In this document: one piece after another, positions 40,286 to 54,780 of the stretch
Position numbering within the stretch: position 1 is the stretch's first letter
Layout: each line of letters starts with the position of its first letter
NCBI GenBank assembly: GCA_030141605.1
Contig: JAQGDQ010002387.1
Span: 124,001 to 188,000, forward strand
DNA length: 64,000 nucleotides
Source of the DNA: Tubiluchus corallicola
Taxonomy: Eukaryota > Priapulida > Priapulimorpha > Priapulimorphida > Tubiluchidae
Direction: 5' to 3'
Translations under genes and position numbers: made by a program
The notes under the pieces: model-generated
What the model was told of the DNA's origin: nothing
Databases searched by the model: none
Seen by the model: the letters and a program-made list of their open reading frames with translations, nothing else

Positions 40286-40290
40286 CTAGG

Positions 40291-40576
40291 TGTTTTGGAT
40301 ATAAGCACGTGGTGCCTCCTGGTGTTTGTTTTTCCTAGTTTAGACAGGTGAGCTAGGTCAGGAAATAGGCCATTGGCCTCATTTCACAGTTAGCATATGA
40401 AAGAAGTGAGTCACCGGTATGCGGCAAAGATGTAAGTTTCATTTCTTCACATTTCGTCATGTCATATTATTATTAATTATCATTATACCAGTTACTTAAT
40501 GTTTTGACGTTGGTTTAGCAGAAAGAATTTTTAATTTTTCTTCAGCTAAAACGAAGTCGAACGCATGTCGCGTACA
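40291..40576 (+). repeat. 5' LTR of BEL/Pao element
   Basis: 286 bp, starting TGTTTTGGATATAAGC and ending GTCGCGTACA. By eye it is identical to the 3' LTR except for three single-base differences and no indels, about 99 percent identity. Confidence 0.95.
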
Positions 40577-40658
40577 GTTTTATATCTCAGTCTGTGTACC
40601 TAGAAGAGACGGCCATATTGCTTTCGAGAACAGAACACCTGGACAAGGGTAGTACAGC

Positions 40659-41177
40659 ATGGCTTCCGGGCAAGGACGAGATTTGTTGAGACTAAATGAA
40701 GAACAGCTTCAGCAAAAAACCGTACAAGAGTTAAGAAAGTTGCTACGGGATAAGGGATTACAAGTCGCTGGAAGCAAAGCAGAATTAGTCCAACGAGTAC
40801 TGGACAGCGAGATTACTGCAGAGGTAACCACGCCTACTTCAAAGAGTGAGAGTGTTAAAACGGCTCGTGACCAATCAGGCGAGGTGGGAGTGATGCAAAC
40901 GGACAACACCACGTCCAGCAGTGTGAAAACTTCTGCAACAAACTTAAGCAGGTTTGATTTGCATGCCTTGAAAATTAAAGAACAGAAACTAAAATTACAA
41001 GCCATGGAAATCAAACATTTGAGCCTGCAAAAGGCTAGTCAGGGTTCTGCTAGTTCAGATGTGGCTTCGCCTGTAGCCAAAGAAATATCAAGTGCAGAAA
41101 AGGTCAATGAGTGGATTGAAAAGTCACACAAAGATGTCACAGAAGTCTCGTCACCTGAAGGGCTCATCAAACCCGAA
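40659..41177 (+). CDS. BEL gag N-terminus with SAP-like domain and coiled coil
   Basis: The ATG at 40659 opens a frame whose residues 16-50 (NEEQLQQKTVQELRKLLRDK, then GLxVAGSKAELVQRVL) match the SAP fold: two amphipathic helices with a Gly-Ser-Lys turn. SAP domains bind AT-rich DNA or chromatin. A Ser/Thr-rich linker follows, then a charged helix at residues 100-125 (LHALKIKEQKLKLQAMEIKH) that looks like a coiled coil for gag multimerisation. From residue 174 the frame becomes glycogenin without a stop. Whether the SAP domain belongs to this BEL lineage or was also acquired cannot be told here. Confidence 0.75.
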
Positions 41178-41914
41178 GCTTACGTTACTATGGCTACCAA
41201 TGATAAATACGCCATAGGTGCTCTAGTACTGGCTTCTTCGCTATGTAATGTTGGTATTACACTTAGTTTAGCGATATTAATTACAACTGGAATTTCTAAA
41301 CCCATAATGACGCAGATAAGCGCCACCTTTGATCACGTGGAGCTTGTGGAAGCTATTGACAGTTCACATGTAAAAAGTCTACAATTACTAGGACGGCCCG
41401 AATTAAAGGTGACTTTTACAAAACTGCATTGTTGGAGGCTAACTCAGTTCTCAAAATTTGATTTTTGGATTCTGATGTAATTGTCCTGCAAAACATAGAT
41501 GATTTATTTAGCTGGAACGAACTGTCAGCAGTTGCAGATATTGGCTGGCCTGATTGTTTTAATAGCGGACTTTTCGTTTTTGAACCTAATCTTAGCACGT
41601 ACAGTGAATTGAGGTCATTCGCTCAGTCAGATTCAAGCACATTCGACGGTGGAGAGCAAGGTCTACTAAACCAGTATTTTAAAGCCTGGAATACAGCTTT
41701 TGATAAACGATTGCCATACAGGTATAATGTAGCAGTAAAGCAGTTTCGAGAAAGTGTCAAGGTTGCTCATTTCATGGGTCCTAGTAAGCCCTGGGACAGT
41801 ATACGCAGCATTTATCACAAGCAAGTGGCGCCAGCTACAGGTAAAACAGACTTTGAATCTGAAATGTTAAATATTTGGTGGTCACTTTACATTCATGAGG
41901 TCGAACCAAACTGG
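41178..41914 (+). pseudogene. Captured, intron-less glycogenin GT8 domain, frameshifted
   Basis: The family adds the first glucoses to itself to prime glycogen. In the first frame AYVTMATNDKYAIGALVLAS and RPELKVTFTKLHCWRLTQFS match the glycogenin N-terminus. One base is missing near 41456, and the domain continues in the next frame with DSD (41468-41476, the metal-binding DxD), GWPDCFNSG (about 41543-41569), FDGGEQG, HFMG and KPW, and the terminal helix LNIWWSLY. It covers essentially the whole catalytic domain in about 737 bp with no introns, so it derives from spliced mRNA. The loop between YN and the VKQF segment is about ten residues short. In glycogenins that loop contains the self-glucosylated Tyr. 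FDGGEQG has Glu where FDGGDQG is usual. Activity is therefore unlikely even without the frameshift. It lies inside gag, in frame with the SAP-like N-terminus. Confidence 0.93.
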
Positions 41915-42284
41915 CCTCATGAATTAGAACTAATAAATAAAGCTAATGTTCAGCAGCACATTCCTACCCGAACAAAACTCAGTCCTGATGCACCTGAATT
42001 TGCCACTCGCTTACATGACAGGAGCAGTGTTCATAGAAAATTATACACATGATGACGGGGCGAGATATACCAGGCTTTTACAATTTTGCACGGGCGAAGC
42101 AAAACGGGTTGTCGAAAGTTGCAGTTATATGGACCCGCAGATCGCATACAGTCATGCTAAGCAAATGCTTATTGAACGTTTCGGGTCACCCTTTATTGTA
42201 ACACAAGCGTGGTTGGCTAAAATAAATGAGTTTGCAGTCATAAAAATAATGAAAAGGAAAAACTCAGGGAATTTTCTGACTTGA
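41915..42284 (+). CDS. BEL gag central region, frame-broken
   Basis: After the glycogenin domain the frame continues with HIPTRTKL, like the start of BEL gag core. It then shifts near 41990 into LPLAYMTGAVFIENYTHDDG, ARYTRLLQFCTGEAKRVVES and AKQMLIERFGSPF, typical of the BEL gag capsid-like region. Another shift near 42245 ends this frame at 42284. Confidence 0.8.
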
Positions 42285-42724
42285 TGATTGGTTGTGTAGA
42301 GACATTAAAGGCCATGGACAATTTAGCCGAAATAAATACACAAACAAGTTTGCTTCAAGTCATTAAGAAACTCCCATTCCGTTTGCAAGACAAATGGAGA
42401 GACGTTGTTACCAAGTTAAATAAACATGATGGCAGAAATCCTACAATTTACGACGTGGTGGGATTTGTCAAAGAGGCGACTGAAAAAATAAACCATCCCG
42501 TGTTTGGTGACCTTGCAACCGGTGGTCAAATGAACATTACAAAACGCAAGAATAAATTAGCAACTAGGAATTTCGCATGCACTACCTTTCGAACAAGAAG
42601 TTCATCCAGAGAAGAAAAATCGAGTCAAACAGGCGGAACGCCAAAGGATAGAAAATTAAGCAGTAGAGATGTCAGAAAATGTGTTCTGCAACTCAGCCGA
42701 GCATGTTTCTCTAAAAAACTGTGA
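42245..42724 (+). CDS. BEL gag C-terminal part, frame-broken
   Basis: The frame reads NEKEKLREFSDLMIGCVETL and then INTQTSLLQVIKKLP, followed by a basic Ser/Arg-rich stretch. The recognisable gag continues in the next frame from about 42675, so this frame's last residues up to its stop at 42724 are an out-of-frame tail. Confidence 0.75.
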   Translation, partial: NNEKEKLREFSDLMIGCVETLKAMDNLAEINTQTSLLQVIKKLPFRLQDKWRDVVTKLNKHDGRNPTIYDVVGFVKEATEKINHPVFGDLATGGQMNITKRKNKLATRNFACTTFRTRSSSREEKSSQTGGTPKDRKLSSRDVRKCVLQLSRACFSKKL

Positions 42725-45700
42725 ACAGTTTAAAGACAAGTCGGAAGAAGAGAGACTACAGTTTGCTCGGAAAAGTCGCTTATGTTTTAACTGCTTACAG
42801 AAAGGGAACCAAAGAGCTGGAAGCTGTTACAAACCAGGCTGTACAAGACAGGGATGCAGAAGAAAACATTCTGCTCTGCTTCATGACGCTCTGGAGAAGT
42901 GGGCTCCTTCCAATGGCGAGAGGTCAACAAATGTTGAAGCAACAAGTTGCGCTGTCACTACAACCAAACTGTCAACAAGGGCTGTGCTCCCCATCACTCC
43001 TGTAAAGGTACAGGTGCAAGGCGGACGTCCAATTCAGACAATGGCTTTGTTGGACCCAGGATCAACTAATACGTTCTGTTCCAAGGCCATATATGATGAG
43101 CTGGGAGCTGTTGGCAAGAAACAAGTCGTGTCACTGACTACAATTGAAAAGAAGCATTCAAAAATACATACTTCTGTGACCAAGATGTACGTCAGTAAGT
43201 TGGATGGATCAAACAAAATGAAACTTCCCTTTGTCTTTGTCAGGCCATCTTTGATGTTGGATGTGACTGACTATTTGGTAGACGAACAAGACATTAGTAA
43301 CTGGCCTCATCTCAAAGATGTTCCTTTGACGCTAGCTGATTCACGTGAACTGCAGCTCGGGTTAATTATAGGACAAGACGTCTCTGATGCATTAATGCCT
43401 TTAGAAACACGCTGTGGGCCAAGAGGAGTTCCGTATGCAACAAGGACTAGACTTGGATGGACATTAAATGGCCTGATAGGAGGCGGCAATGAGGACACTA
43501 AAAAGCTGTCAAACAACCTTCTTCAGGCAGAACAGGTTACCAGCCAGCGACAAGTCGAAAAATTTTGGAAAATGGACGCTGTTGACGATAGCATACAGTA
43601 CTCCCATGACGATAAGTTGGCGCTGAGCATTTGGGAGAAGTCCATCACCAAAAGAAATGGTCACTACGAATTGGAGATACCTTTTAAGTCTAATGATGAC
43701 AACATTCCTGACAGTTTTCAAATGGCTTCAAAGAGGTTGGCAAGCCTTCGCTGTAGACTCAGCAAGAATAAGTTGTTGCATGAAAAATACTCCCAAGCCA
43801 TGGCTGATCTGCTCCAAAAGGGATACGCAGAAGAAGTTGTTGAACATGATACGAATGTTGCAACATGGTACTTGTCACATTTTCCAGTTTTTAATGAGAA
43901 CAAACCCGAAAAAACTAGGATCGTATTTGATTGTTCGGCAACAGAAGACGCAGTCTCTCTCAACATGTTGGCACTACAAGGTCCAGATCTGACTAATAAA
44001 TTGCTTGGTGTCCTGCTATGCTTTAGAAAGTATCCAGTAGTAATCATGGCTGATGTTCGTGAGATGTTTCACCAGGTGTACGTAGCACCGAAGAATAGGG
44101 ACATGTTGAGATTTCTCTGGTGGAATGATGGAAACCTAGATGCGCCACCCTCCATATTTCGAATGACAGTCCACCTTTTTGGCGGTGTGTGGTCGCCCAG
44201 CGTAGCTTCATTTGCTCTCCAACAGACAGCTAGAGATAACGTCAACTGTTTTGATGAGCATGCATTAAATACGGTGGTACATAGCTTCTATGTCGACGAC
44301 CCCTTTAAATCTGTGGAAACTGCAAAAGAACCAATCGATTTGATGTCAAAATTAATACAGATTCTAGACACTGGAGGTTTCCACTTGACCAAATGGATGA
44401 GTAACGACAGAGACGTATTAGCATGTGTGCCAATTGAAGAACGAGGAAAGAACATTAAGAATCTTGATCTAACCCAGGACGATCTACCAAATGAACGAGC
44501 CTTAGGGGTTAAATGGGATGTCAAAAGCGATATACTTGGCATTCAGGTTAAGCTGCGAGAAAAGCCAAGCACCAAGCGGGGACTACTTAGGTCATTAGCA
44601 AGCACCTATGATCCCCTAGGCATGGTCTCGCCTTTCATTTTACAAGCGAAAAGACTGTTTCAGAACGAATGCCGGATCCAGGAAAAATCATGGGATGATA
44701 GACTGGAAGAAGAGACTGAGAAAAGTTGGGATAAATGGAAATCTGATTGTCCTGCACTAGAATACTTTACGCTAGACAGATGCCTGAAGCCAAGAGATTT
44801 TGGAAGAATTGCTGACTTGCAGCTGCATCACTTCAGCGATGCATCCCAGTATGCTTACGGCACTGTAACTTATGCACGGATGGAAAATGCTGATGGAGTT
44901 GTACACACAGCATTTGTAATGGCAAAGTCTAGGCTAGCACCTATGAAAAGCCTAACCATACCACGCCTTGAGTTGTGCACAGCAGTATTAGCCTCAACTG
45001 TCGACAAACAACTGAGAAGAGAATTGTCCATACCCATCAGCGAGTTCGTGTTTTGGTGTGACAGCACTATAGTGCTTCAATACATACGCAACACCACAAG
45101 ACGTTTCCATACTTTCGTGCAAAATAGAGTGACTACCATACTAGAAACTTCGTCGCCAGTTCAGTGGCATTATATCAGTACCGCAGATAATCCAGCTGAT
45201 GACGTATCCCGAGGAATGGACGCCAATGCCTTAGTAAAATCTCAGCGTTGGAAATATGGTCCTAGTTTTCTGCGAAAAGCCCAACATGAATGGCCGCAGC
45301 ATGATCCGAGCAAAGAAAATGATGAACTTAACGACGATAAAGAAGTCAAGCAGACGACATGTTCCACTACTGTAAAACACATACAGGATAGAAACGACAC
45401 AATTAGCAAGCACATTGAACATTTTTCGTCATTTTACAACCTCAAGAAAGCAGCAGCTTGGATTCTTCGTCTGAAGGACATTTTGCAAAAGAAGATCAGA
45501 GGAGAAAAACCTGAAGTACCTCCAAAGTTAACAGTGCAAGAGCTGACAAGAGCTCAAGATGCATTAGTAAAATTCGTTCGGACTCAGAACTTTGGCATGG
45601 AATATAAGGCGCTTACACAAAAATCTGCTAAATTGATGCGCATCCCTAAATCAAGCAGGCTACGAAAACTTGATCCGTTCATTTGCGAGAAGGGTTTGCT

Positions 45701-45740
45701 ACGTGTTGGTGGACGACTGAAGGCGCCAGGCACCCTATGA
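42669..45740 (+). CDS. BEL/Pao zinc knuckles, protease, RT and RNase H
   Basis: A 1023-codon open frame. Residues 39-72 hold two Cys/His knuckles (CFNC...C and CTRQGC..KH). The first has Asn-Gln where His is usual. Residues 125-137 (MALLDPGSTNTFC) are the aspartic protease D-x-G-S box, with Pro in the middle. The RT has KTRIVFDCS, the acidic motif in MADVREMFHQV (460-470) and YVDD (541-544). RNase H acidic residues are in HHFSDAS (724), PRLELCTA (768), WCDST (798) and NPADDVSRG (844). These are intact by inspection. The frame ends at RVGGRLKAPGTL, where BEL proteins continue into integrase: a short deletion there shifts the frame. Confidence 0.93.
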   Translation: MSENVFCNSAEHVSLKNCEQFKDKSEEERLQFARKSRLCFNCLQKGNQRAGSCYKPGCTRQGCRRKHSALLHDALEKWAPSNGERSTNVEATSCAVTTTKLSTRAVLPITPVKVQVQGGRPIQTMALLDPGSTNTFCSKAIYDELGAVGKKQVVSLTTIEKKHSKIHTSVTKMYVSKLDGSNKMKLPFVFVRPSLMLDVTDYLVDEQDISNWPHLKDVPLTLADSRELQLGLIIGQDVSDALMPLETRCGPRGVPYATRTRLGWTLNGLIGGGNEDTKKLSNNLLQAEQVTSQRQVEKFWKMDAVDDSIQYSHDDKLALSIWEKSITKRNGHYELEIPFKSNDDNIPDSFQMASKRLASLRCRLSKNKLLHEKYSQAMADLLQKGYAEEVVEHDTNVATWYLSHFPVFNENKPEKTRIVFDCSATEDAVSLNMLALQGPDLTNKLLGVLLCFRKYPVVIMADVREMFHQVYVAPKNRDMLRFLWWNDGNLDAPPSIFRMTVHLFGGVWSPSVASFALQQTARDNVNCFDEHALNTVVHSFYVDDPFKSVETAKEPIDLMSKLIQILDTGGFHLTKWMSNDRDVLACVPIEERGKNIKNLDLTQDDLPNERALGVKWDVKSDILGIQVKLREKPSTKRGLLRSLASTYDPLGMVSPFILQAKRLFQNECRIQEKSWDDRLEEETEKSWDKWKSDCPALEYFTLDRCLKPRDFGRIADLQLHHFSDASQYAYGTVTYARMENADGVVHTAFVMAKSRLAPMKSLTIPRLELCTAVLASTVDKQLRRELSIPISEFVFWCDSTIVLQYIRNTTRRFHTFVQNRVTTILETSSPVQWHYISTADNPADDVSRGMDANALVKSQRWKYGPSFLRKAQHEWPQHDPSKENDELNDDKEVKQTTCSTTVKHIQDRNDTISKHIEHFSSFYNLKKAAAWILRLKDILQKKIRGEKPEVPPKLTVQELTRAQDALVKFVRTQNFGMEYKALTQKSAKLMRIPKSSRLRKLDPFICEKGLLRVGGRLKAPGTL

Positions 45741-46420
45741 TATTACCGAGAAAGCATAAGCTGTCAGAGCTAATCATTCGTCATTACCACGAAACGAACG
45801 GCCACATTGGCAGGGAACATGTCATAGCTTTAGTAAGAAATGAATTTCGGATAATTCATGCAAGAGCCTTGGCACGCAAAGTCCTGTACGAATGCCGACA
45901 TTGCAGGCTTCGCAAGCCATCTTTCCTTGATCAAAAGATGGCAGATTTGCCTATTGACAGACTACAGCCATCAGACGCTTTTACCACTATTGGCATTGAT
46001 TGTTTTGGCCCGATACAGACCAAGAGAGGTCGCTCACACATTAAACGCTATGGAGTCATCTTTACATGCCTAGCTACACGCAGTATTCACTTGGAAGTCC
46101 TATTTGACATGTCCACTGATTCGGTTATAAAGGCGATTAACAGATTTTGCTGCCGCCGAAGGAAGCCAGACAAAATCAGGTCAGATTGTGGGACTAATTT
46201 TGTAGGAGCAAGCAGAGAGCTGAGAAAGTCTATAGCCGAGTGGAACAATGACGTCATACATTCAGAGCTTCTTCAGCGGCAAATAGAATGGCAATTCAAC
46301 CCACCAAGAGCCCCACACATGGAAGGTGTTTGGGAGTCTCTCATTAAGAGTGTGAAGAAGATTCTCTTTCCAACGAACAAACCTTGGATGATGAAGGCTT
46401 GGCAACCCTGTTTTGTATAG
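45722..46420 (+). CDS. BEL/Pao integrase, N-terminal and core domains
   Basis: The frame is open from 45683 and becomes integrase-like at ARHPMILPRKH (about 45722). The HHCC zinc domain is HYHETNGHIG with CRHC. The DDE core has Asp in GIDCFGPI, Asp in RSDCGTNF and Glu in PHMEGVWESL. A frameshift near 46390 ends it early. It catalyses integration of the element's cDNA. This copy is broken at both ends. Confidence 0.88.
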   Translation, partial: GARHPMILPRKHKLSELIIRHYHETNGHIGREHVIALVRNEFRIIHARALARKVLYECRHCRLRKPSFLDQKMADLPIDRLQPSDAFTTIGIDCFGPIQTKRGRSHIKRYGVIFTCLATRSIHLEVLFDMSTDSVIKAINRFCCRRRKPDKIRSDCGTNFVGASRELRKSIAEWNNDVIHSELLQRQIEWQFNPPRAPHMEGVWESLIKSVKKILFPTNKPWMMKAWQPCFV

Positions 46421-46860
46421 TTGAAAATATAGTTAATAGCAGACCGCTAACTACAGTTTCTGACGATGTTGACGACTTCAATCCGTTGACTCCGAATCAC
46501 TTTCTTCAGATCAGCGCAGTTCCAAACCTGCCTTTGGGAAAGTTTTGTCAGGCAGATCTCTTTCGACGAAAGTGGAGACAAATACAGTATCTCTCGGATA
46601 TCTTTTGGCGCAGATGGTTGACTGAATATTTGCCCACTCTACAGACTCGAAGCAAATGGAACAAGGAGCAGAAGAATGTTGAAATAGGAGACATCGTATT
46701 AGTTCTGGATGAGACACCAAGGAATCACTGGATGCTAGGACGGATCATTGAAGCACGGAAAAGCAGTGATGGACTAGTGAGAAGTGTGATGTTGAAGACT
46801 AGAGATGGGACTCTAAAACGACCAATTCATAAAATAAGTTTAATCGAATGTAACAATTAG
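46384..46860 (+). CDS. BEL/Pao integrase C-terminus with DUF5641-like tail
   Basis: In the frame after the shift, DDEGLATLFCIVENIVNSRP continues the integrase core. FNPLTPNHFL, FRRKWRQIQYLSDIFWRRW and IGDIVLVLDETPRNHW followed by RPIHKISLIE match the DUF5641 region that ends BEL/Pao polyproteins. The stop at 46858-46860 is probably the native pol stop. Confidence 0.88.
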   Translation: MDDEGLATLFCIVENIVNSRPLTTVSDDVDDFNPLTPNHFLQISAVPNLPLGKFCQADLFRRKWRQIQYLSDIFWRRWLTEYLPTLQTRSKWNKEQKNVEIGDIVLVLDETPRNHWMLGRIIEARKSSDGLVRSVMLKTRDGTLKRPIHKISLIECNN

Positions 46861-46995
46861 TTGATTTTGTTAAGCATTCATAAACTGTATGTTTAAGTTA
46901 AACTTTGAAGTAGATGTATGTCAATTTAGTCAGTCATGATATGTTATTACACTGTTGGTTTCCTTTAATTTTGTAAATGCTGCAGGAGAGCATTT

Positions 46996-47005
46996 AAGGA
47001 GGCAG
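46996..47005 (+). promoter_or_regulatory. Polypurine tract of BEL/Pao element
   Basis: AAGGAGGCAG lies immediately before the TG of the 3' LTR. A purine-rich tract in this position primes plus-strand DNA synthesis. Confidence 0.7.
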
Positions 47006-47291
47006 TGTTTTGGATATAAGCACGTGGTGCCTCCTGGTGTTTGTTTTTCCTAGTTTAGACAGGTGAGCTAGGTCAGGAAATAGGCCATTGGCCTCATTTC
47101 ACAGTTAGCATATGAAATAAGTGAGTCACCGGTATGCGGCAAAGATGTAAGTTTCATTTCTTCACATTTCGTCATGTCATATTATTATTAATTATCATTA
47201 TACCAGTTACTTAATGTTTTGACGTTGGTTTAGCAGAAAGAATTTTTAATTTTTCTTCAGATAAAACGAAGTCGAACGCATGTCGTGTACA
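47006..47291 (+). repeat. 3' LTR of BEL/Pao element
   Basis: 286 bp, starting TGTTTTGGATATAAGC and ending GTCGTGTACA, with three substitutions from the 5' LTR (AAATAAG for AAAGAAG, CAGATAAA for CAGCTAAA, GTCGTG for GTCGCG). It is followed by the CTAGG duplication. Confidence 0.95.
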
Positions 47292-47296
47292 CTAGG

Positions 47297-54302: not shown

Positions 54303-54402
54303 TGTAACAATACCATAGATATGGTTTGTTTAGATAAAAGATCTTGGTGATTGCTTAGGAGGGTTCTGCATTCGAGACTGTCATGCTGCTCTGATCTTCT
54401 TT
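54303..54402 (+). repeat. Left arm: partial inverted LTR
   Basis: 100 bp starting TGTAACAATACCATAG. It is the reverse complement of 54681-54780 with 3 mismatches. The inner end is joined to gag within a short shared AAAGAAGA sequence. Confidence 0.85.
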
Positions 54403-54583
54403 TTTCACTTCTTCAGTTTTGTCACTAAGTGCAGGTTGCATATACAAGCTAAATTCTTCACGCCATTTTTTCCATGCTTGTGACAGATTGCGTGATTCGA
54501 AGTTTAGTGCGTTAGGTGGTTTTAGCTGATTCATAGTTCTCTACAAATTTGCCGTCCGAATAAATACTCAAAACAACTAGTTC

Positions 54584-54596: not shown

Positions 54597-54780
54597 TGTT
54601 ACACGCTACAATAATATTAGCAACCAGACAAATGCGTGCATAATAAAGTAGTATTTATTAAACTAATTAGGAACTTAAACAAAGAAGATCAGAGCAGCAT
54701 GGCAGTCTCGAATGCAGAACACTCCTAAGCAATCACCAAGATCTTTTATCTACACAAACCATATCTATGGTATTGTTACA
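54597..54780 (-). repeat. Complete 184-bp LTR of fold-back element
   Basis: Minus strand TGTAACA...TGTAACA, TG/CA ends, immediately followed by a primer-binding site beginning TGG. TATTTATT and AATAAT words lie inside. The right arm of the palindrome is its first 100 bp. Confidence 0.8.

Follow-up and report, generated by a model that had tools for sequence, protein, structure and literature searches.

A glycogenin-type GT8 domain is probably a working part of Gag in BEL/Pao retrotransposons of the priapulid Tubiluchus corallicola

How does the catalytic domain of glycogenin come to lie inside the Gag of a retrotransposon, and is it a passenger there or a working part of the protein? The question is raised by a 64,000-nucleotide stretch of Tubiluchus corallicola DNA (hereafter the window), in which positions 40291–47291 form a 7-kb element of the BEL/Pao type. 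BEL/Pao LTR retrotransposons constitute the Belpaoviridae. Consistent with this family, the window element contains a Pao-type peptidase and a BEL-type pol flanked by an LTR pair; TG...CA LTR ends together with a 5-bp target-site duplication, also characteristic of BEL/Pao, are found here (CTAGG) and in the copies on contigs C448 (GTACC) and C1810 (ATATT). Its Gag is arranged in the order SAP domain, coiled-coil-like stretch (recognised by eye), GT8 domain, Gag core and zinc knuckles, and is followed on the 3' side by the Pao peptidase, reverse transcriptase, integrase and DUF5641. Within pol, Peptidase_A17, Integrase_H2C2 and DUF5641 scored above their Pfam cut-offs and RVT_1 and rve below theirs. 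The features of the element are as follows.

40286–40290, no strand: left target-site duplication CTAGG, from flank comparison
40291–40576, plus strand: 5' LTR, TG...CA, 286 bp, three mismatches to the 3' LTR
40577–40583, plus strand: putative primer-binding site adjoining the LTR end, without a tRNA-type TGG
40707–40805, plus strand: SAP domain of Gag (Pfam PF02037, 7.9e-9)
41100–41117, plus strand: KVNEWI motif immediately 5' of GT8, identified by eye
41175–41935, plus strand: glycogenin-type catalytic domain (GT8), with a frame break between 41462 and 41480
41730–41745, plus strand: gap site at which ten residues with the Tyr195 equivalent (30 nt) are absent by comparison with L023
41939–42962, plus strand: Gag C-part, capsid and zinc-knuckle nucleocapsid, with several frame breaks (L023 matches)
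44025–44378, plus strand: reverse transcriptase RVT_1 (0.001, below the curated cut-off)
44571–45065, plus strand: Peptidase_A17 (Pao) domain (1.2e-47)
45755–46237, plus strand: Integrase_H2C2 zinc-binding domain and rve core (rve below its cut-off)
46570–46842, plus strand: DUF5641 (2.8e-30)
47006–47291, plus strand: 3' LTR, paired with the 5' LTR
47292–47296, no strand: right target-site duplication CTAGG, from flank comparison

The original prediction placed a glycogenin-type GT8 domain between the SAP-bearing N-terminus and the Gag core, inside recently duplicated LTRs with a CTAGG duplication, and our analysis confirmed this arrangement: the 286-bp LTRs differ at three positions and CTAGG is present on both sides. 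The C-terminal piece of the domain matched Pfam PF01501 (1.5e-9), whereas PF01501 went undetected in the N-terminal piece at a cut-off of 0.01; glycogenin-1 was the best PDB match of both pieces (2.9e-36 and 1.3e-20, respectively). The predicted motifs AYVTMATNDKYAIGALVLAS, DSD, GWPDCFNSG, KPW and WWSLY were located in the window, and the predicted coordinates of the domain proved correct. This copy is defective, as Gag and pol are split over several overlapping frames. Compared with its close relative L023, its GT8 is missing ten residues that include the equivalents of Tyr195 and Tyr197, and the window copy is thus without the acceptor tyrosine. The window locus is present in five contigs (C1796, C2016, C2136, C2140, and C2209) that are identical across the 3,585 bases compared, and subtraction places the match at the same distance from the contig end, 110,225 bases, in all five. 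Based on this, we read the five as assembly redundancy and dropped the idea of five young insertions. Elsewhere in the window, positions 54303–54405 and 54678–54780 form an inverted repeat with 103-nt arms that are 96% complementary and 272 nt apart.

The original prediction also proposed a search for further copies with the same insertion, and such copies proved numerous. Using the C-half of the window GT8 as query against the genome (343.5 Mb, 2344 contigs), we obtained at least 71 matches at E ≤ 0.001, with 80 of 80 candidates scored. Merging pieces at most 3 kb apart on one strand left 60 places, among which are the cellular gene (C2137), the window locus as it recurs in four further contigs, and at least one repeat of the C900/C2321 locus (L019 and L021 are identical). 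Contigs C461 and C485 likewise represent one locus, with 99.8% identity over all 5,498 bases including the flanks. Loci recur across contigs together with flanks that are identical or nearly so; some stretches thus seem to have been assembled more than once, which inflates the copy counts. In other genome contigs, the GT8 search returned two distant bacterial GT8 among 27 stretches, and in viral contigs single-protein patterns, which cover close relatives only, gave no match to GT8 or to the 1026-aa pol frame.

From 5.5-kb pieces taken around 40 of the 60 places, Gag N-part frames were obtained in 24 cases, and these fall, on our own reading of the identity table, into eight diverged groups: A (L023 and the window), B, C, D, E, F, G (L026), and H (L061, in which GT8 is truncated). 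Identity of the N-part between groups is mostly 34–58%, rising to 73% with one short open partner. Some frames that include GT8 are open over 2201, 2217, and 2028 aa. In six representatives Pfam detected SAP (6/6, below the cut-off in L029), GT8 (6/6), and DUF1759 (5/6); in the exception, L027, the frame ends 5' of the DUF1759 place and the DUF1759 match was then found at C2:617197. In the groups inspected by eye, GT8 occupies a constant position in the linker and is preceded by a similar W motif. Judged by sequence, the GT8-bearing elements include young insertions. The LTR pairs of C930, C448, and C1810 each show a single mismatch, over 288, 424, and 412 aligned bases, respectively, stretches that slightly exceed the LTR ends; the mismatch of C1810 lies outside the LTR at the edge, and the target-site duplication of C930 was unreadable because the piece ended early.

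Within these Gag proteins, conservation is strongest in GT8. In all ten between-group comparisons of five representatives it had the highest identity (46–57%, versus 36–53% for the Gag C-part, 26–39% for the N-part, and 33–51% for the stretch after it). The dN/dS ratio of GT8 was 0.11–0.50 in 11 of 14 pairs, and 0.81, 0.81, and 1.08 in the three that involve L047 or L048, copies with a frame break within GT8. Values for the Gag C-part were 0.27–0.53, and GT8 does not have the lower ratio in every pair: L045–L042 gave 0.50 in GT8 versus 0.27 in the C-part, and L039–L040 gave 0.45 in both. When five non-overlapping pairs were pooled, the 31 synonymous (Sd) and 38 non-synonymous (Nd) changes departed from neutrality at p 1e-4, given an expected synonymous share of 0.24 (measured 0.21–0.22) and in a test that ignores transition bias and the pairs' shared ancestry; with broken copies added or swapped in, p was 0.0006 and 0.002.

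We also scored twelve GT8 positions, whose functional roles we take to be those of the equivalent glycogenin residues, in 41 copies including broken and near-identical ones. Asp104 and Asn133 were kept in 40 of the 41, Gln164 in 38, Asp102, Lys86, Gly215, and Lys218 in 37, and Asp160, Asp163, and Tyr195 in 36, followed by Tyr197 (34/41) and His212 (33/41). The combination that marks a glycogenin, GT8 ligand residues plus the self-glucosylated tyrosine, is therefore present by sequence in most copies. The position of Asp102 is occupied by Glu in L043/L044, a single locus on two contigs, and by Asp in two other members of that group, L047 and L053. Natural selection appears to have maintained GT8 in several diverged lineages. 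That it is a neutral passenger is disfavoured by both the dN/dS values and the residue conservation.

Selection could act on functions other than self-glucosylation. The domain may be an active cytosolic glucosyltransferase with another substrate, such as a host protein, a different Gag residue, or the nucleic acid of the particle. Conserved ligand residues would be expected of such an enzyme too, and relatives with other acceptors exist, as indicated by the Skp1 glycosyltransferase (6mw5) that the window GT8 matched in the PDB; however, an acceptor tyrosine is needless for a foreign substrate and is present in 36 of the 41 copies, and we consider this explanation unlikely. Somewhat less probable still is that GT8 is kept purely for its fold, as a dimerisation module that aids Gag assembly and for which catalysis is irrelevant. 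Glycogenin forms dimers, the domain is fused within Gag, and one locus has Glu for Asp102, all in keeping with a structural role, but conservation of the ligand residues, Lys218, and Tyr195 extends across groups with ~50% identity. We prefer the reading that the glycogenin domain, derived from RNA, is a working part of Gag and probably makes it a self-glucosylating protein.

Derivation from RNA is indicated by comparison with the cellular gene. The intron-bearing glycogenin gene that the original prediction anticipated was recovered on C2137, where searches with the GT8 N-part and with rabbit glycogenin-1 identified exon-like pieces. Four introns with GT–AG ends, their splice sites deduced from the sequence, would interrupt the domain at codons 47, 106, 160, and 202 (phases 2, 0, 1, and 2). 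Alignments of the element GT8 domains continue without interruption across all of these places; the lack of the cellular introns is a hallmark of RNA-mediated capture and points to acquisition via RNA or a retrocopy. Insertion of a BEL element into the host glycogenin gene is ruled out, as GT8 is enclosed by the LTRs and the host gene maps to a different contig. The host and mammalian glycogenins are 63.7% identical to each other, and seven element GT8 domains share 48–53% identity with the host protein and 48–56% with mammalian GYG1. This equidistance implies that the capture is old or that the domain evolves fast. In a tree of 16 GT8 rows, the host and mammalian glycogenins grouped together (90/85). 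The group D domain joined the cellular sequences rather than the other elements, at 72/62 only, so that the element GT8 domains may or may not form one clade and several captures are conceivable.

Relatives that lack GT8 also occur in this genome. A genome search for DUF1759, with 150 matches scored among 260 candidates, placed nine just downstream of a GT8 match and 141 elsewhere; the list lacks the GT8-bearing members of groups A, B, D, and E, contains repeated contigs, and was accompanied by a match in one of 14 known control genomes, a Sulfolobus. These counts suggest that many BEL elements of this genome are without GT8. Three GT8-less N-parts (L069, L070, and L071) were inspected; the N-part of L070 is coiled-coil-like and includes a similar W motif, and the frames of L069 and L071 are shorter. 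A KVNEWI-like motif is present in L070 and in a further GT8-less element, L072, which retains SAP and in which GT8 is absent both by eye and in the genome GT8 search. L072 and the GT8-bearing L062 have flanks 94–96% identical in DNA; the 864-base GT8 segment of L062 is missing from L072 and ~58 bases of repeats stand in its place. At the join, L072 carries tandem EQPGSSS-like repeats. The Gag frame of L072 stays open over the join and, given the near-identical flanks, this indicates that GT8 can be dispensed with. Contigs C2120 and C2123 also match the L072 span and may be the same locus repeated. Because GT8 occupies the same place in other groups, its absence from L072 is probably a loss. 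In a capsid tree that left out groups B and G, the two GT8-less rows did not group together (p-AU 6e-5; long branches flagged), and L072 fell on the side of group D.

This position of L072 and the affinity of the group D domain for cellular sequences (72/62 only) would also fit two or more independent glycogenin captures into the same Gag linker, in place of one capture followed by loss. We regard this as rather improbable, since GT8 sits at the same linker place after a similar W motif in the groups inspected by eye and, between L062 and L072, one segment is simply missing. A recent single capture of host glycogenin mRNA by one element would agree with the intron-free GT8 and the similar window LTRs, but its occurrence in eight diverged groups, found through the genome search, and the near-equal distances of seven representatives from host and mammal make this so improbable that we rejected it. 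Of the capture of a spliced glycogenin mRNA put forward in the original prediction, the intron-less domain fused to BEL gag therefore stands, and the one-off, recent origin from the host gene does not.

On balance, we lean towards an old RNA-derived capture of glycogenin into a BEL/Pao Gag, after which selection kept the enzyme and Gag most likely came to glucosylate itself. We infer a single event of template switching, by which the catalytic domain of glycogenin, beginning close to the N-terminus of the enzyme and extending as far as the GT8 fold does, would have landed in the linker that joins the SAP/coiled-coil N-terminus of Gag to its capsid part. The lineage would then have diversified with GT8 staying in place, retained by selection as an enzyme. 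Most likely, Gag would dimerise through GT8 and would glucosylate its own retained tyrosine, giving particles that carry short alpha-glucan chains. The gain can be guessed at; targeting to, or stability in, glycogen-rich cells is conceivable, as are sugar-coated particles or an association with germ-cell glycogen.

A second feature of these elements concerns their priming. No tRNA-type primer site (TGG) was seen directly after the LTR. In 11 of 15 upstream regions (L023, L026, L027, L029, L030, L031, L041, L044, L045, L053, and L062, several of which share groups), a 7-mer preceded by AG is the complement of the bases that follow a CA farther downstream. Five different 7-mers occur among the 11, and the LTR 7-mer and its complement covary between groups. 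First-order Markov simulations put the chance of such a pair at 0.3–4.3%, for a pattern initially spotted by eye in some of the same elements; the LTR ends are anchored by a 3' LTR in four of the elements only (window, C930, C448, and C1810). The four regions without the pair are the window, C40, H61, and x55. In the window, 40577–40583 pairs by eye with 47261–47267 of the 3' LTR, and the 5' LTR 7-mer carries a mismatch. Upstream of the 7-mer, ATGTAAGT or ATGTACGT, resembling a 5' splice site, occurs in nine of the 15 regions (window 40430–40437, L027, L029, L030, L031, L040, L041, L044, and L045), and in several a pyrimidine-rich stretch ending in AG was noticed by eye just before the 7-mer.

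The 7-mer pairing is reminiscent of Tf1-type self-priming, here within a BEL element. Self-primed LTR elements include Tf1, Tf2, Maggy, and Skippy, among others (PMC6934838), with which the present elements share the absence of a conventional tRNA-type primer-binding site; unlike those, the present elements are BEL elements, and what they show of self-priming is sequence complementarity only. With considerable reserve, one may picture a clade whose Gag is a glycogenin that primes alpha-glucan on its own tyrosine, yielding particles that are sugar-coated or incorporated into glycogen granules, and whose reverse transcription is self-primed in place of tRNA priming; we give this combination a minority chance.

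The elements share with glycogenin (GYG1/GYG2, GT8) the catalytic domain, the ligand residues, and the acceptor tyrosine, but carry them embedded in Gag. The C-terminus of glycogenin bears a glycogen-synthase-binding motif; by eye, this part of the protein was not seen in the elements. The Pao peptidase, integrase zinc domain, DUF5641, DUF1759 Gag, and 5-bp target-site duplication are held in common with BEL/Pao elements, whereas SAP and glycogenin domains inside Gag set the present ones apart from those known. The literature matches listed included no description of a BEL element that carries glycogenin or GT8, and the term "glyco" is absent from the main text of the 2011 BEL/Pao survey (PMC3118150). 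BEL/Pao elements are restricted to metazoans, according to PMC3601003. A precedent, described in PMC5408684, is that of bdelloid rotifer LTR elements with a captured ORF3 (GDSL esterase, DEDDy exonuclease). There too, acquired enzyme genes are retained in families, but as a further ORF besides gag and pol and with other enzymes, whereas here the capture lies within Gag. What is new relative to that account is a metabolic enzyme inside a structural protein, apparently selected across diverged lineages. The GT8-less L072 beside its GT8-bearing sister offers a ready comparison for the role of the domain. If Gag does glucosylate itself, particles would produce a cytosolic glycan coat of their own, which would link a mobile element with glycogen metabolism.
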